52,204 nucleotides of DNA from an uncultured bacterium. Lineage in GTDB: Bacteria; Bacteroidota; Bacteroidia; Sphingobacteriales; Sphingobacteriaceae. The position numbers and the translations under genes are program-made. The notes below the pieces were generated by a model that worked only from the letters and a program-made list of their open reading frames with translations, did no database searches and had not been told where the DNA came from. Each line of letters begins with the position of its first letter. Position 1 is the stretch's first letter. The stretch is from positions 1-52,204 of the forward strand of contig CAIKLP010000030.1 of assembly GCA_903828245.1 (NCBI GenBank), in the 5' to 3' direction. Of the stretch, positions 42,324 to 50,292 are shown piece after piece.

Positions 42324-42818
42324 TTAATTCGATTGTTTAATTTTTTCAATAATATTTGAAGTGGAATAACCTGGTACAAAGTCCATGGTTTCTACTTTTC
42401 CGCCATTGTTTAATACAACATCTGCACCTACTATTTGTTCGATGCGGTAGTCGCTTCCTTTGACTAAAATATCAGGAATTAAAAAGCTAATGAGCTCTTG
42501 AGGTGTTTCTTCATCAAAAAGTATTACGGCATCTACAAATTGTAATGACGCTAATATTAATGCCCTTGATTGTTCGTCTTGAATGGGTCTGCTATCTCCT
42601 TTTAATCTACGAACGGAAGCATCTGTATTTAATCCAATAATTAATTTACCACCTAAAGAGGCTGCTCTGGCAAGGTAATCGATATGTCCAAAATGGATAA
42701 TATCAAAACATCCATTGGTGAAAACAATTTTCAAGCCCATGTATTTCCAAACATCCATGAGTCCAGACACTTCTTCTTTCCTCATGATCTTGGATTTTAC
42801 TTTCATCAGTTTTTCCAT
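42324..42818 (-). CDS. rfaE2: Heptose 1-phosphate adenylyltransferase (RfaE2/HldE-C type)
   Basis: Nucleotidyltransferase of the HldE C-terminal type that activates heptose (or a related sugar) phosphate with ATP for lipopolysaccharide core synthesis. Motifs: [17 protein letters not shown] (the HxGH nucleotide-binding signature), [34 protein letters not shown] and the closing [13 protein letters not shown] with its STS loop. 164 residues, stand-alone without the HldE kinase domain, common in Bacteroidota. Three bases from the flippase-like gene. A glycerol-phosphate-type cytidylyltransferase is the alternative, but VKGSDY argues for RfaE2. Confidence 0.9.
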
Positions 42819-44184: not shown

Positions 44185-45027
44185 CTATTCAAGCAACATA
44201 TTGTCTATTAATCTTACGCTTGGAAAGCGAAGGGCAACAATGGCAATTGGCGCCATATGCTTGCTACTATCCCATGTTTTTAGGTCTTCTTGTGCAACAA
44301 TGGCAAAATATTCAAGCTGAACGTTGTCAATTGATTGGAGGGCTTGCTCGGCGCTTAATTGAATAGTTGAAATAGCATGTTGCTGTAAAAATTGGCTTTT
44401 GCAGGCATTTAATACTTCAAAAATTTTAGCTGCAGCCACTCTTTCCAACTCATTTAAGCGAATATTCCTAGAACTCAATGCCAAACCATCGGACGCTCTT
44501 AGTATAGGGCAAACCACTATTTCGGTTTTTAACTGGAAGTCTTTTACCAATTGCTTTACCACAATGGTTTGTTGGAAGTCTTTTTGCCCAAAATAGGCTT
44601 TATGGGGTTGTATGAGTGATAAAAGCTTATATACTATTTGTCCCACACCTTTAAAATGTCCGGGTCTACTGGCGCCCTCCCAGCATAATTCAATTTCGCC
44701 AAAAGCATGATCCCAAATTTCGCCAGGGCTATACATTTCGCTAATTTCTGGCAGAAACAATACGTCACAATTTACCGATTCGAGCATTTGCATGTCGTTT
44801 TCAATCGGACGGGGGTATTTGATTAAATCGCTAGGGTCGTTGAATTGGGTTGGATTGACAAAAATGCTACACACAACCAAGTTGTTTTCACTTTTTGCCT
44901 TAGTGATTAAAGAAGTATGGCCAATATGAATCGCACCCATAGTTGGCACAAAGCCAATGGATTGCAGATTTGTCTTGGCTAAGGCAAGTACGGCTATTAA
45001 TTCCTTTTTTGTTTTACAAATTTTCAC
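44185..45027 (-). CDS. panC: Pantoate-beta-alanine ligase
   Basis: Joins pantoate and beta-alanine with ATP to form pantothenate. The family motifs are all present: FVPTMGAIHIGHTSLI (HxGH), VCSIFVNPTQFNDPSDL, PGHFKGVGQIVYKLL, AYFGQKDFQQ and ASDGLALSSRN, the KMSKS-type loop. 280 residues is normal. Directly upstream of panD, whose product supplies beta-alanine. The 154-base spacer to the divergent half starch-synthase gene carries a -7 box for the rightward gene. Confidence 0.97.
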   Translation of the reverse strand: MKICKTKKELIAVLALAKTNLQSIGFVPTMGAIHIGHTSLITKAKSENNLVVCSIFVNPTQFNDPSDLIKYPRPIENDMQMLESVNCDVLFLPEISEMYSPGEIWDHAFGEIELCWEGASRPGHFKGVGQIVYKLLSLIQPHKAYFGQKDFQQTIVVKQLVKDFQLKTEIVVCPILRASDGLALSSRNIRLNELERVAAAKIFEVLNACKSQFLQQHAISTIQLSAEQALQSIDNVQLEYFAIVAQEDLKTWDSSKHMAPIAIVALRFPSVRLIDNMLLE

Positions 45028-45116
45028 CTTAAGCGGTTTGATTAGGCAAAATTGTCATTTTTTTGATAATATCAAGCATCATATTGGTTTTTCAAAAAAT
45101 TATCCAATATTATTAG

Positions 45117-45124
45117 TATATTTG
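45117..45124 (+). promoter_or_regulatory. Candidate -7 promoter box for the glgA-like/DUF4270/glmS unit
   Basis: TATATTTG is an exact TAnnTTTG match, 57 bases before the ATG, implying a leader of about 50 bases. No clear -33 TTTG is correctly spaced; a TTG at 45084-45086 is about ten bases too far. Confidence 0.45.
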
Positions 45125-45181
45125 CAATCCCAATTTACCTCGTTATTCCACGATAAATTGTTGACTAGAAGTTAGTTCAAT

Positions 45182-46009
45182 ATGGCAAAAACAAAGATTC
45201 TCTTTATCGCACACGAAATGTCACCATTTCTGGAGCTAACCAAAATAGCGAAGATAACACGACAATTACCACAGGCAATGCAAGAAAAAGGTTTCGAAAT
45301 TCGAATCTTAATGCCGCGTTTTGGAAATATCAACGAAAGAAGAAACAGATTACATGAAGTAATTCGTTTATCTGGTATGAATATCGTCATCAACGAAAAT
45401 GATAATCCATTGATTATCAAGGTAGCATCGCTTCCAACTGCTAGAATGCAGGTTTATTTCTTAGATAATGAGGAATATTTCCAACGCAAACAAGTATTTA
45501 GGGATGCAAAAGAAAAGTTCTTCGATGATAACGATGAACGCATGATTTTCTTCTGTAAAGGAGCCATTGAAACAGTAAAGAAATTAGGTTGGATGCCAGA
45601 TGTGGTTCATTGCATGGGTTGGATGAGTAGTTTAGTACCGATGTACTTAAAAACGGCTTACCGCGAGGATCCAATGTTTAAAAACACCAAGGTTGTCTAT
45701 TCGGTTTACGAAAATTGTTTTACAGAAAACCTCGATAAAAATTTAAAAACTAAGGCTTTAACTCCCGATATGAATGCTACAGATGCAGCATTATTAAAGG
45801 ATTCAAGCTGTTCATCTCTACATATAAGCGCAATTAATTATTCAGATGCTGTCATTAAAGCAGACGAAAACATTGAAGCAAGCGTTTTAAAGTTTCTTAA
45901 CAAACAAACTGACAAATTAATTATTGAGAAAACAGACCATGAAACGTTTGATTTTGACAATTTTGTTCAGTTTTATGATGAGGTAAGCGTAGATTTAGTA
46001 ACTACTTAA
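45182..46009 (+). CDS. Half-length glycogen/starch synthase-like protein (GT5 N-domain only)
   Basis: Matches the N-terminal Rossmann half of GT5 glycogen synthases: KILFIAHEMSPFLELTKIAKITRQLPQAM aligned at the synthase N terminus, a long loop, DVVHCMGWMSSLVPMYL (like the usual DVVHaHDW) and VVYSVYENCF. At 275 residues it lacks the whole C-terminal half with the catalytic site, and the ADP-glucose KxGGL motif reads KIAKI at 21-25, so it can hardly make glycogen alone. It is followed by the DUF4270 gene (12 bases) and glmS, an order I recall as common in Bacteroidota. Role unknown. Confidence 0.85.
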   Translation: MAKTKILFIAHEMSPFLELTKIAKITRQLPQAMQEKGFEIRILMPRFGNINERRNRLHEVIRLSGMNIVINENDNPLIIKVASLPTARMQVYFLDNEEYFQRKQVFRDAKEKFFDDNDERMIFFCKGAIETVKKLGWMPDVVHCMGWMSSLVPMYLKTAYREDPMFKNTKVVYSVYENCFTENLDKNLKTKALTPDMNATDAALLKDSSCSSLHISAINYSDAVIKADENIEASVLKFLNKQTDKLIIEKTDHETFDFDNFVQFYDEVSVDLVTT

Positions 46010-46021
46010 AGAATTTTAAGA

Positions 46022-47329
46022 ATGAAGTGGAAGACATCCAAAGACTTATTAATTATATTAATAAGTCTTTTTATTTTACAATCTTGTAAAAAAGAAGGTT
46101 CGATTGGTTTAGAAGATCAATTAAATGAAACAGGCATAGGCGTTGGTAAAAACGATACATCTAGCATTATTGTTTGGACGGTGAAAGACGATACTTTAAT
46201 TTCTTCCAATTATGCAAGAAACCTTTTAGGAGAATTAATTGATCCAGTATTTGGCGAGACCAGAGCCAGTATTGCTTTTCATGCTACGCTTTCTAAAAAC
46301 AATGTGAGTTTTGGTACCACGCCAACACTCGACTCTATTGTAATGGTGATGGGTTATATTGGGGATACTTCCCAAAGATTTTATGGAGATAAAAATTCCT
46401 TATTTAATATTTCTGTATCGCAATTAGACGAAACCATCAGTAATGATAGCATCTATTATTCCAATAAAAAATATAAAGTAAAATCAACCGAAATCGGATC
46501 TGTTCGTTATAGACCAAATCCTAAGGACAGTCTGATTATTCAAAATATTATTGATGGTAAAAAAGATACCCTCATGAAAGTATATCCACAAATCAGAATT
46601 AAATTAGCGGATGATTTCGGTAAAGAATTATTAGCAAAGTCTGGACTAGTTGATTTATCTGATAATACCGCGTTTTTAAATGCATATAAAGGATTTTATT
46701 TAACAGCAAAAAACTTAAGTGGCAATGGTGGTGTAATGTCTTTTGATTTAACGAATGCCAATCGTTCTTATATTATTTTGTATTATAAAAATACAACAGA
46801 CACGAGCAATTTTATTTTTAATATCAATAGTGTTGCGGCAAATGTGAACCGTTACGAGCACGATTATTCGAATACCAAAGTACAATATCAATTTACCGAT
46901 ACCGTTCAGGGGCAACAAAATGCCTACGCACAATCGTTAGCGGGTACCAGAGTGCGTATTCGTTTTCCCGATTTAGAATTAAGAAAAGATTCCAATAAAA
47001 TTGCCATCAACAAAGCAGAATTAATTATCCCAATTGAAACAGGATCGGATAGCAAATTTGCTGCGATTAGTACGCTTTCGTTAAAGGCCAGAAGAAAAGG
47101 AAGTAATGCCGAATATCTTATATCTAGTGGTGTTTATGATGCTAGTAAAAAGCAATACACCATCGAAATGACAAAAACTGTTCAGCAGTTTATTTTAAAT
47201 AAATTAGATTTTCAGGCACTTTATCTAGAAGATGCGAGCAAACAAATCAAGGCCAATCGAAGTATTTTAAATGGTCCAAAACATCCAAGCAGACCTATCA
47301 GATTAGCCATTAGTTATTCAAAACTTTAA
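46022..47329 (+). CDS. DUF4270 lipoprotein
   Basis: A 435-residue lipoprotein: signal peptide with lipobox LQSC (C22), then a beta-rich DUF4270 domain, e.g. GLEDQLNETGIGVGKND, LIDPVFGETRASIAFHATLS, TLDSIVMVMGYIGDT and the C-terminal AELIIPIETGSDSKF. It is exported and likely sits on the outer membrane. No biochemical role is known to me; location between the half starch synthase and glmS suggests a surface polysaccharide or envelope link. Start MKWKTSKDLL fits a signal peptide. Confidence 0.85.
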   Translation: MKWKTSKDLLIILISLFILQSCKKEGSIGLEDQLNETGIGVGKNDTSSIIVWTVKDDTLISSNYARNLLGELIDPVFGETRASIAFHATLSKNNVSFGTTPTLDSIVMVMGYIGDTSQRFYGDKNSLFNISVSQLDETISNDSIYYSNKKYKVKSTEIGSVRYRPNPKDSLIIQNIIDGKKDTLMKVYPQIRIKLADDFGKELLAKSGLVDLSDNTAFLNAYKGFYLTAKNLSGNGGVMSFDLTNANRSYIILYYKNTTDTSNFIFNINSVAANVNRYEHDYSNTKVQYQFTDTVQGQQNAYAQSLAGTRVRIRFPDLELRKDSNKIAINKAELIIPIETGSDSKFAAISTLSLKARRKGSNAEYLISSGVYDASKKQYTIEMTKTVQQFILNKLDFQALYLEDASKQIKANRSILNGPKHPSRPIRLAISYSKL

Positions 47330-47362: not shown

Positions 47363-49198
47363 ATGTGTGGAATTGTAGGATATATTGGACATCGTAATGC
47401 TTACGACGTAATAATTAAAGGCTTAAAAAGATTAGAATATAGAGGTTATGATAGTGCCGGCATAACTTTGTTAAATGGTTCGATGAACATTTATAAAAAA
47501 GCAGGTAAGGTAAGCGATTTAGAAAACTTTGCCGAAGGCAAAGACATCAATGGCTCGGTTGGTATGGGTCATACCAGATGGGCAACACATGGCGAACCAA
47601 ATGATCGCAATGCGCATCCGCATAAATCTAATAATGGAAAACTTTCGATTATTCACAATGGCATTATCGAAAACTACGCAACCATTAAAACAGAATTAAT
47701 TAAAAGAGGACATATTTTTAATAGCGATACCGATACCGAAGTGTTAATTCACTTAATTGAAGAAATTCAACATAAAGCAAATGTTTCTTTAGAAGAAGCA
47801 GTCCGATTATCATTACATGAAGTAATTGGTGCATATGCCATTGTGATTATTTCGGAAGATCAACAAGACGAATTAATTGTAGCACGTAAAGGAAGCCCAA
47901 TGGTAATAGGTATTGGCGAAGGAGAGCATTTTATTGCTTCTGATGCTACACCCATTATTGAATACACCAAAAATGTAGTGTATTTAAATGATAGCGAAAT
48001 GGCCATCGTAAAAAAAGATTCTTTGGTTATCAAAAATATCGAAAACATTGTTCAAAATCCGGTCATTCATGAATTGGAAATGCAATTAGAAATGATTGAG
48101 AAAAATGGCTACGAGCATTTCATGATGAAAGAAATTTACGAACAACCAAAATCTATTTACGATAGTATGCGTGGTAGAATTCGTGCAAACGAAGGTTTGA
48201 TTTCTTTGGGTGGATTAAAAGAATACGAAACTAAATTTAAAAACGCAGACCGAATTATTATTGTCGCATGCGGTACTTCGTGGCATGCAGGTTTAGTGGC
48301 AGAATATATTATCGAAGAATTTGCGCGGGTACCTGTCGAAGTAGAATACGCTTCGGAGTTTAGGTATCGTAATCCAATTATTACAGAAAACGATATTATA
48401 ATTGCCATTTCGCAATCTGGCGAAACGGCCGATACGCTTGCTGCCATTGAATTAGCAAAATCAAAAGGAGCAACTATATTTGGTATTTGCAATGTGGTTG
48501 GTTCTTCTATTCCGCGTGCTTCGCATGCAGGTGCTTACACACATGCTGGACCAGAAATTGGTGTGGCATCTACCAAAGCATTTACAGCGCAAGTAACTAT
48601 CTTAACTTTATTGGCTTGGTCTTTAGCGCAAATCAAAGGAACACTTTCGCGCACCAGAGTGGTAGAATTGTTAACCGCATTAGAAGCCATTCCTGCAAAA
48701 GTGGAAAAAGCATTGACATCAAACGAGCAAATTCAAAAAATTGCAGCAAATTTTAAAGACGCACCTAATTTTTTATATTTAGGAAGGGGATTTAATTTTC
48801 CAGTGGCTTTAGAAGGTGCTTTAAAATTAAAAGAGATTTCTTACATCCATGCCGAAGGTTATCCTGCAGCAGAAATGAAGCATGGTCCCATTGCGTTGAT
48901 CGACGAAAATATGCCAGTAGTGGTAATAGCTACCAAAGGTTCGATTCTCGAAAAAACCATTTCCAATATTCAAGAAGTAAAAGCGCGTAAAGGAGTTATT
49001 ATCGCCATTGTTACCGAAGGCGACATCGAAGTTAAAACAATGGCCGATTATGTGATTGAAATTCCAGATACAGAAGAAGCTTTGGTGCCTTTATTAGCAA
49101 CTATTCCATTGCAATTATTGTCTTATCATATTGCTATTATGAGGGGTTGTAATGTTGACCAACCAAGAAATTTAGCAAAGAGTGTTACGGTAGAATAA
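47363..49198 (+). CDS. glmS: Glutamine-fructose-6-phosphate aminotransferase (isomerizing)
   Basis: Makes glucosamine-6-phosphate from fructose-6-phosphate and glutamine, first step of amino-sugar synthesis for peptidoglycan and lipid A. N-terminal class II glutaminase: MCGIVGYIGHRNA with the nucleophile Cys after Met removal, HTRWATHGEP and NAHPH. Two SIS domains follow: CGTSWHAG, SQSGETADT, GRGFNFPVALEGALKLKE and AEGYPAAEMKHGPIALI, ending LAKSVTVE as in E. coli. 611 residues is normal. 33 bases after the DUF4270 gene; ends before a strong terminator. No glmS ribozyme is seen in the 33-base gap. Confidence 0.97.
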   Translation: MCGIVGYIGHRNAYDVIIKGLKRLEYRGYDSAGITLLNGSMNIYKKAGKVSDLENFAEGKDINGSVGMGHTRWATHGEPNDRNAHPHKSNNGKLSIIHNGIIENYATIKTELIKRGHIFNSDTDTEVLIHLIEEIQHKANVSLEEAVRLSLHEVIGAYAIVIISEDQQDELIVARKGSPMVIGIGEGEHFIASDATPIIEYTKNVVYLNDSEMAIVKKDSLVIKNIENIVQNPVIHELEMQLEMIEKNGYEHFMMKEIYEQPKSIYDSMRGRIRANEGLISLGGLKEYETKFKNADRIIIVACGTSWHAGLVAEYIIEEFARVPVEVEYASEFRYRNPIITENDIIIAISQSGETADTLAAIELAKSKGATIFGICNVVGSSIPRASHAGAYTHAGPEIGVASTKAFTAQVTILTLLAWSLAQIKGTLSRTRVVELLTALEAIPAKVEKALTSNEQIQKIAANFKDAPNFLYLGRGFNFPVALEGALKLKEISYIHAEGYPAAEMKHGPIALIDENMPVVVIATKGSILEKTISNIQEVKARKGVIIAIVTEGDIEVKTMADYVIEIPDTEEALVPLLATIPLQLLSYHIAIMRGCNVDQPRNLAKSVTVE

Positions 49199-49479: not shown

Positions 49480-50292
49480 ATGAAAAAAATCATTCAACAA
49501 GTGCTTGATTTTCCGCAATCGGTTAATCAGCAAATTTTCAAAGGACGCATCAACGATGCAGTAGATTCGTTTGATGGTCAGAATGGAGTGAGGTCTTATG
49601 TGAGCTCAATTTACGAGTATATTGCATTCGCTGTTTTTGTGTGGATGGAGTACAATTTATTAATGGCTGCTTACACTTACTTAACAGGTACAGCTACAGG
49701 AATAGAAAAAGCAGGAAGTTTGTTAACGATCGCGTTATTAATTTTATCTGCTTTTCCGATTGCACAATTAATTAGGGCAAGAGGAAATTCATTTAATTCA
49801 TCTCACAGCGGAATGGTTAGTTTTGTTTTCAATGATTTTGTGAAAACAAACATTCGTTTAGTTGGAGAAGTAGTGGCTATCATGGCATTATTTTCGGCAT
49901 TTAATTTTACCTTATCGTTCTTGTTGGATCAGGATTTATTTAATCCAGCAACATCGGGTGCAAACTTATTATCACCAATGGCACCTTTAGCAACTTTACC
50001 GATGAATTTATTAGCAGGCATTATGGCTCACTTTAAATTTGATGGAATTACAGACATGATCAACGGCGCAATGGCTTATAGAATGGACAATAGCGCAGGT
50101 ATCTATTATGGTAATTTTGTTTGGGATGTGAGAGATTGGGCATTGGTATTAGGATCATATGTAAATGTAATGGTTGGTTTAATTATGATGTATATTAGTT
50201 TAGCGATATACGGTTATATCTATGGTATCATCTCAAGTGTGATTGCATGGATTGCAAATCCATCATTCCCTATTTCAATGAGAAATAAATAA
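49480..50292 (+). CDS. Orphan integral membrane protein, unknown function
   Basis: I do not recognise this 270-residue protein. It has a basic/helical N-terminal 45 residues without a cleavable signal, then hydrophobic segments at about 47-70, 80-98, 127-149, 163-183 and 222-259, so five or six membrane crossings. Between them are polar loops such as RARGNSFNSSHSGMV (99-112) and a GITDMINGAMAYRMDNSAG loop (189-207). No catalytic motif is evident. It is a single-gene unit: its own weak promoter, a terminator on each side, and convergence with sodA. Codon use resembles the neighbours, so no sign of recent transfer. Confidence 0.7.
   Translation: MKKIIQQVLDFPQSVNQQIFKGRINDAVDSFDGQNGVRSYVSSIYEYIAFAVFVWMEYNLLMAAYTYLTGTATGIEKAGSLLTIALLILSAFPIAQLIRARGNSFNSSHSGMVSFVFNDFVKTNIRLVGEVVAIMALFSAFNFTLSFLLDQDLFNPATSGANLLSPMAPLATLPMNLLAGIMAHFKFDGITDMINGAMAYRMDNSAGIYYGNFVWDVRDWALVLGSYVNVMVGLIMMYISLAIYGYIYGIISSVIAWIANPSFPISMRNK

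Follow-up and report, generated by a model that had tools for sequence, protein, structure and literature searches.

Split GT-B enzymes exist. Alg13/Alg14 and GtfA/GtfB are split or helper glycosyltransferases, whose GT-B domains are without a full active site of their own. Like these proteins, the product described here, which we call the half, is a GT-B domain lacking a complete active site of its own. In contrast to them, it is one domain only, its acceptor-domain catalytic residues are lost and no partner enzyme was found in the three genomes searched. The gene lies in a 52,204-nt stretch of DNA, hereafter the window, from an uncultured bacterium of the family Sphingobacteriaceae (GenBank assembly GCA_903828245.1, contig CAIKLP010000030.1).

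Glycogen synthase GlgA from E. coli (structure 2qzs) resembles the half in the fold of the N-domain and in a C-terminal crossover helix (Z 24.8), and has a common ancestry with it. The half differs from GlgA in having no donor domain, in the loss of KTGGL and of the D/H/N set, and in a different conserved surface. A second relative is the PRK14098-type 'starch synthase', a model that we take to be linked to Chlorobi. Two such copies, L069 and L070 from lineage f16, have the same signature residues as the half, but are full length, with an altered KTGGL and R300/K305 pair and no adjoining bamH.

The half gene is found directly upstream of bamH, or of bamH-bamG in other classes. BamH is a surface lipoprotein of the BAM complex of Bacteroidota, represented by Fjoh_0823, Bt4306 and PGN_1735 (Nature 2025; Nat Microbiol 2025; PMC12611786, PMC12578637). 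According to the accessible parts of these papers, a bamH deletion was not obtained in F. johnsoniae, and BamH is important, not essential, in B. thetaiotaomicron. Their named BAM subunits do not include the half, which occurs there solely in the name of a promoter: in the Nature 2025 paper a 100-bp stretch preceding fjoh_0824, in which −33 and −7 motifs are conserved, served as promoter. The terms glycogen, glycosyltransferase and DUF4270 are absent from the texts of PMC12611786 and PMC12578637. We equate fjoh_0824 with the half on gene numbering, as the neighbour of bamH (fjoh_0823).

BT_4307, annotated as a putative glycogen synthase, was one of 16 proteins in a B12 photo-affinity screen of B. 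thetaiotaomicron and, in the part of that report available, was captured in both screens (log2 2.6 and 1.05). Its annotation and its number, which adjoins Bt4306, suggest that it is the half, and its capture would then favour a binding role; proteins captured in such a screen may also be abundant ones. One paper, seen in part, cites BT_4307 as an indication that B. thetaiotaomicron stores glycogen, and one review, in the part consulted, already mentions a conserved GT5 fragment. In the literature covered, which leaves out most subscription papers and preprints, we found neither the bamH linkage nor the single origin nor the signature described, and nothing usable on essentiality of the half gene.

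Fold, lost catalytic residues and conserved signature

As shown in Table 1, the half gene is an unbroken ORF for a single GT5 N-domain without donor domain. The original prediction, of an intact gene confined to the N-terminal GT5 domain, is borne out by the 275-aa ORF, the Pfam match and the single-domain model. PF08323 (Glyco_transf_5) is the sole Pfam match, over profile positions 1-224 of 239 (E 4e-54), and its 184.3 bits lie above the curated cut-off of 22.7, which places the protein in GT5. The half is not assigned to GlgA, since TIGR02095 (glgA) gave 123.1 bits, under the cut-off of 328.45, over profile positions 2-213 of 477; full GlgA models covered it by their first ~230 positions only, with scores far under the cut-offs. 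The top NCBIfam model was PRK14098 'starch synthase' (188.6 bits). No signal peptide was evident on reading the N-terminal sequence.

Table 1. Features of the half locus in the window
Feature	Coordinates	Strand	Evidence
rfaE domain II, heptose-1-phosphate adenylyltransferase, in divergent panC/panD run	42324..42818	-	TIGR02199 198.7 bits, cut-off 181.5
panC, divergent neighbour of the half	44185..45027	-	PF02569 E 2e-89
Probable −7 promoter element of the half gene, TAnnTTTG type, TATATTTG	45117..45124	+	TAnnTTTGC in relatives
Half GT5 gene (pseudo-glycosyltransferase), 275 aa, limited to the N-terminal GT-B domain	45182..46009	+	ORF, Pfam, NCBIfam, AlphaFold2, structural alignment, tree
Signature loop RFGNINERRNRLHEVIRLSG, codons 46-65, with R53, H58, R62	45317..45376	+	Near-invariant: 116 halves, 16/16 intact BamH-locus full-length copies
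Terminal helix of the half, codons 259-270, equivalent to GlgA C-terminal crossover helix	45956..45991	+	Structural alignment, Y265
bamH (DUF4270), surface lipoprotein of Bacteroidota BAM complex	46022..47329	+	PF14092 E 1.5e-37; lipoprotein signal ending LQSC in translation
Hairpin and T-run inside bamH signal-peptide codons, terminator- or attenuator-like	46040..46075	+	14-bp stem, 3-nt loop
glmS, final gene of local run, linkage confined to Bacteroidia	47363..49198	+	TIGR01135 836 bits

AlphaFold2, run on 22 family sequences, predicted a single well-folded domain (pLDDT 89.6, pTM 0.91). Structure listings were headed by GT5 enzymes, followed by glycogen phosphorylases. VIA-align gave Z 27.6 with Arabidopsis SS4 (6gne), and with E. 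coli GlgA (2qzs) it placed residues 4 to 269 of the model on residues 1 to 477 (rmsd 2.6, 246 aligned). The comparison with GlgA thus recovered the N-domain together with the crossover helix: residue 477 is the end of the 2qzs chain, so the last helix of the half fills the place of the C-terminal crossover helix of GlgA, and its Y265 aligns with the C-terminal Tyr seen in all full-length copies. Retention of this helix indicates that the donor domain was excised with both ends kept, and argues against a mere truncation of the gene.

The columns of D137, H161 and N162, which we take to be the catalytic residues of GlgA, hold G, Y and E in the window's half. KTGGL of E. coli GlgA aligns with E18-L-T-K-I22, so that the KxGGL motif is absent. 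Its replacement had been read as KIAKI; the loss of the motif stands but the register does not, KIAKI being residues 21-25. The donor-binding domain with R300, K305 and E377 is absent from both sequence and model. The equivalents of E. coli K15, G17, G18, D137, H161 and N162 are intact in all 16 BamH-locus full-length copies and in 21/21 canonical GlgA. Among 116 halves, 10 keep the K of K15, 20 the D of D137, 6 the H of H161 and 42 the N of N162; S (59), T (52), N (4) or D (1) stands in the G17 column, never G. Judged from these residues, the half would not be able to act as a glycogen synthase alone.

A different set of residues is conserved instead. R41, H58, R62, Q90 and W137 occur in 116/116 halves and R53 in 115 of them, and all six occur in 16/16 intact and 5/5 partly degenerate full-length copies; they are not conserved in 21 canonical GlgA. 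Since the halves share this signature with catalytically intact linked full-length copies, it is older than the loss of catalysis. R53, H58 and R62 follow a parallel strand, in an internal loop (residues 46-65) that is modelled with low confidence (pLDDT about 67-76). This would put the loop at the ligand-binding edge of a Rossmann domain, and its low confidence would fit a site that becomes ordered upon binding. The signature could also be structural for the subfamily.

In a maximum-likelihood tree of 78 N-domains, rooted at midpoint, all 36 halves form a single clade (100/99), which indicates a single excision of the donor domain. This clade is nested in a clade of BamH-locus GT5 enzymes and the two f16 full-length copies, separate from canonical GlgA (99/97). 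Intermediate states are seen in two full-length groups, namely the f16 copies, without KTGGL and R300/K305, and L073, L184 and L196, with an altered E377 region. The f16 pair indicates that the PRK14098 'starch synthase' may be an inactive glycogen synthase too.

A relative of the half is present in 251/253 good-quality genomes of the class, far above chance. Its dN/dS was 0.017-0.092 in nine of 12 genome pairs, dS being saturated in the other three, and its dN resembled the GlmS value and was lower than the BamH value by a factor of 6 to 11 (8 pairs with both measured). These values indicate that the half is under strong purifying selection. The half had been foreseen as a retained, catalytically implausible enzyme with a binding or regulatory role, and purifying selection, a near-invariant non-catalytic signature and the lack of an orphan C-terminal half (see below) agree with that. 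Having lost its catalytic residues and yet been kept nearly everywhere, usually beside bamH/bamG, it probably does a different, basic job. The half is probably a non-catalytic cytosolic binding protein, whose core role was already present in an active GlgA-type ancestor at the BamH locus.

Linkage to bamH and bamG, and reduced genomes

In the window the DUF4270 gene starts 12 bp downstream of the half gene, followed by glmS, with panC divergent, as first described. The DUF4270 product scored 130.3 bits with PF14092 (cut-off 27). Its only NCBIfam match, BamH_fj, gave 91.2 bits, under the equivalog cut-off of 420; judging by its name, this model stands for F. johnsoniae-type proteins. An ADP-heptose theme recurs at these loci: rfaE domain II lies in the window's panC run, and a GmhB-like phosphatase lies between a full-length GT5 gene and bamH elsewhere (L058, L073, L189). 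Window positions 49480-50292 encode a probable membrane protein of 270 aa with no family match above cut-off. A half-BamH fusion suspected in genome G021 (843-aa open frame) was rejected, as the two are separate ORFs with a 21-bp gap.

Linkage was counted in two sets. The diverse picks were 59 loci, one duplicate having been dropped, with a GT5 gene called in 57 (36 halves and 21 full-length); the named loci were the best 80 of 580 candidates, 79 with a GT5 gene called, and are therefore biased to Sphingobacteriaceae and kin. The counts omit L065, L072 and L133, where the ORF picker missed the GT5 gene, and L183, which is the same locus as L073; L062 was scored as having no bamH next although tblastn puts bamH directly downstream, and the contig of L114 stops after the half. 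bamH directly follows the half in 31 of the 36 halves among the diverse picks and in 65 of the 79 named loci among the best 80 of 580. For the same two sets, panC is divergent from the half in 19 and 63, and glmS is in the run in 18 and 53.

Halves from other classes have neither panC nor glmS at the locus (0/10). In the four tested, bamG follows bamH, scoring above the NCBIfam cut-off in L054, L061 and L067 and slightly below it in L056. In still other lineages with full-length GT5 the order is mostly GT5, GmhB-like phosphatase, BamH, BamG. BamG was recognised in 12/12 proteins tested, 7 of them above cut-off, and the gene before BamG is BamH by profile comparison of 14 proteins (probability 99.8, E 7.9e-30; reversed sequences 0.1). 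This set includes the pre-BamG genes of L073, L184, L193 and L195, for which the HMM had given no BamH. Linkage to glmS and panC is thus limited to Bacteroidia while that to bamH-bamG spans classes, so the old tie is the one to bamH-bamG.

In Sphingobacterium and some others the half stays beside panC with bamH elsewhere. bamH was found elsewhere in the genome in 14 of 15 tested cases of a half without adjoining bamH. In several genomes BamH escapes PF14092 and is picked up by a wider profile; BamH was not found by profile in G199, G295 and G325, of which G295 and G325 are fragmented and without the half as well.

The adjacency of bamH across classes, the bamG gene after it and the presence of bamH in the genome even where it has moved all favour an outer-membrane biogenesis factor, with the half sensing a cytosolic sugar or nucleotide signal and tuning bamH/bamG expression or BAM assembly. 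We consider this reading unlikely, because the half is retained in genomes where these partners were not detected. Two reduced genomes, G232 and G453, were examined. G232 (489,825 bp, GC 21.8%), one of 295 genomes of the class, retains the half (E 2e-50), which keeps 32/38 of the positions conserved at ≥97% versus 34/164 of the variable positions. By phmmer, G232 has mur genes, mraY, ftsZ and murG, and gave no match for LpxA, LpxB, LpxC, LpxD, WaaA, BamA, BamH, GlmS, PanC, PanD, GlgA or GlgC. G453 queries for GlmS, PanC, PanD and BamA were negative in G232 too; for BamA the result comes from single-sequence queries (E. coli and G453). The G453 LpxC query, a FabZ-LpxC fusion, matched only FabZ of G232. 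G453 (1.2 Mb, of which the largest contig, 1.11 Mb, was read) has the half, panC, panD, glmS, BamA and LpxC, and no match in this contig for BamH, BamG, LpxA, LpxB, LpxD or WaaA. Profiles for PF14092, BamH and BamG, the last built from other classes, detected nothing in G232 or G453. As a control, the E. coli LpxA query recovered the LpxA of two f16 loci (E ≤ 6e-62); the LpxB and WaaA queries were without a positive control. In G232 (L177) enolase and gyrB are the same-strand neighbours on either side of the half, and enolase is also within the bamH-bamG run of L061.

The half is also conserved where bamH does not adjoin it, with dN/dS of 0.048 and 0.092 in two Sphingobacterium pairs. Its retention in reduced genomes and away from bamH argues that its function is not confined to BamH, LPS or GlmS; a role that survives BamH, lipid A synthesis, GlmS and PanC in a reduced genome has to be a basic one. 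The strong bamH linkage could nevertheless mean a function tied to BamH after all.

Donor-domain partners, RNA elements and glmS

In extent the half matches a single GT-B domain plus crossover helix, as would be expected of one component of a split glycosyltransferase whose donor domain is a protein of its own, as in Alg13/Alg14. This is very unlikely, since the catalytic residues of the acceptor domain are lost as well and no orphan C-terminal half turned up: the search, limited to PF00534 in the window's genome (G000) and the two reduced genomes, gave 15 matches, all within frames of 372-553 aa. A complementing C-terminal GT5 half, which the original prediction named as counter-evidence, is thus absent from these matches. 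Nor was a full glgA found elsewhere in the window's genome (1.95 Mb, 99.45% complete), as there is no further PF08323 match above cut-off and TIGR02095 matches the half only; there was no GT3 synthase, and no GlgC above cut-off. Two genomes from the same family as the window (G002, G080) carry a canonical GlgA alongside the half.

Several expression signals surround the gene. TAnnTTTG, which we take to be the −7 promoter consensus, shows no excess in the window (82 words versus 89.5 expected), and TAnnTTTGC is found 45-65 nt before the start codon in 15/15 aligned family relatives. The hairpin inside the bamH codons is a 14-bp near-perfect inverted repeat; the motif is present in 15/15 family relatives examined, and relatives carry silent changes preserving the pairing. 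None of 60 synonymous recodings was equally stable, the loci tested being partly picked by eye. In an unselected diverse set, coding-independent hairpins occurred at 7/45 bamH starts versus 4/384 control gene starts (p 2e-5), three of the seven belonging to one lineage. Unrelated hairpins are seen at the same bamH site in other families (L039, L046, L055, L182). A consensus terminator scan gave 3 sites versus 3.2 expected and missed the bamH hairpin because it requires three G-C pairs, and Rfam detected no known RNA family in 44900-46400 (best E 0.61).

Terminator-like hairpins (≤ −10 kcal/mol) lie past the stop codon of the half in 41/97 cases with bamH next, a count that includes many close relatives, and in 14/18 without; the corresponding counts were 0/20 for full-length copies and 132/879 for operon-internal controls. 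These counts suggest that the half may be produced in excess over BamH.

If the gene owed its retention chiefly to a role in cis as the leader of bamH, with RNA elements at its ends and a reading frame of little weight, the hairpin within bamH would be in keeping with it. So would constraint at synonymous sites, which we observed at the 5′ end of the half gene (window 45182-45400) in the Sphingobacteriaceae sets examined, and at the 3′ end (window 45860-46009) in Pedobacter and Mucilaginibacter, where bamH is next, and not in Sphingobacterium, where bamH has moved. A leader is highly improbable all the same, given the very strong protein-level selection along the frame and the persistence of the gene away from bamH.

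That the half regulates GlmS or envelope amino-sugar supply, as the original prediction proposed, fits the glmS gene after bamH in many Bacteroidia (18/36 diverse and 53/79 named halves, the latter from the best 80 of 580), but is hardly credible, as glmS and panC are neighbours in Bacteroidia only (0/10 in other classes), it is bamH and bamG to which the gene is more deeply linked, and 490-kb G232 keeps the half with no GlmS found by window and G453 queries.

A proposed second function outliving catalysis

We return to a non-catalytic binding protein with an old core role. The starting point would be an ancient GlgA-type enzyme encoded upstream of bamH and bamG. The comparisons show that its donor domain was excised once, leaving the acceptor-side (N-terminal) GT-B domain, and that the catalytic residues decayed with retention of the fold, the crossover helix and the signature R41, R53, H58, R62, Q90 and W137. 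The signature would serve a second function without catalysis, one that the active ancestor already had, and the half would be the remainder once only this function was needed. As the linked full-length copies look like working glycogen synthases, we infer this second function of the ancestor and do not see it directly. The ligand or partner would most likely be bound on the former acceptor face, near the conserved loop. The half would be transcribed ahead of bamH, and in some lineages the terminator-like hairpin probably sets the levels of the half and BamH apart.

A more specific version can be offered only tentatively. The half may be a near-universal core protein of Bacteroidota, in which a second activity, evolved inside an active glycogen synthase at the BamH/BamG locus, was all that remained once catalysis was lost and the donor domain excised. 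It might bind a putative nucleotide-, cobamide- or RNA-like ligand via the R53-H58-R62 loop, and be needed even without LPS and BAM.

Nearly all Bacteroidota genomes examined carry the half gene, which is widely annotated as glycogen synthase. For work in which bamH is deleted or tagged, it matters that the half gene precedes bamH in the same run. Because the half is tied to recently discovered BAM subunits and also survives where these were not detected, it lends itself directly to testing whether a core function lies hidden here, and how a second function outlives enzyme catalysis.
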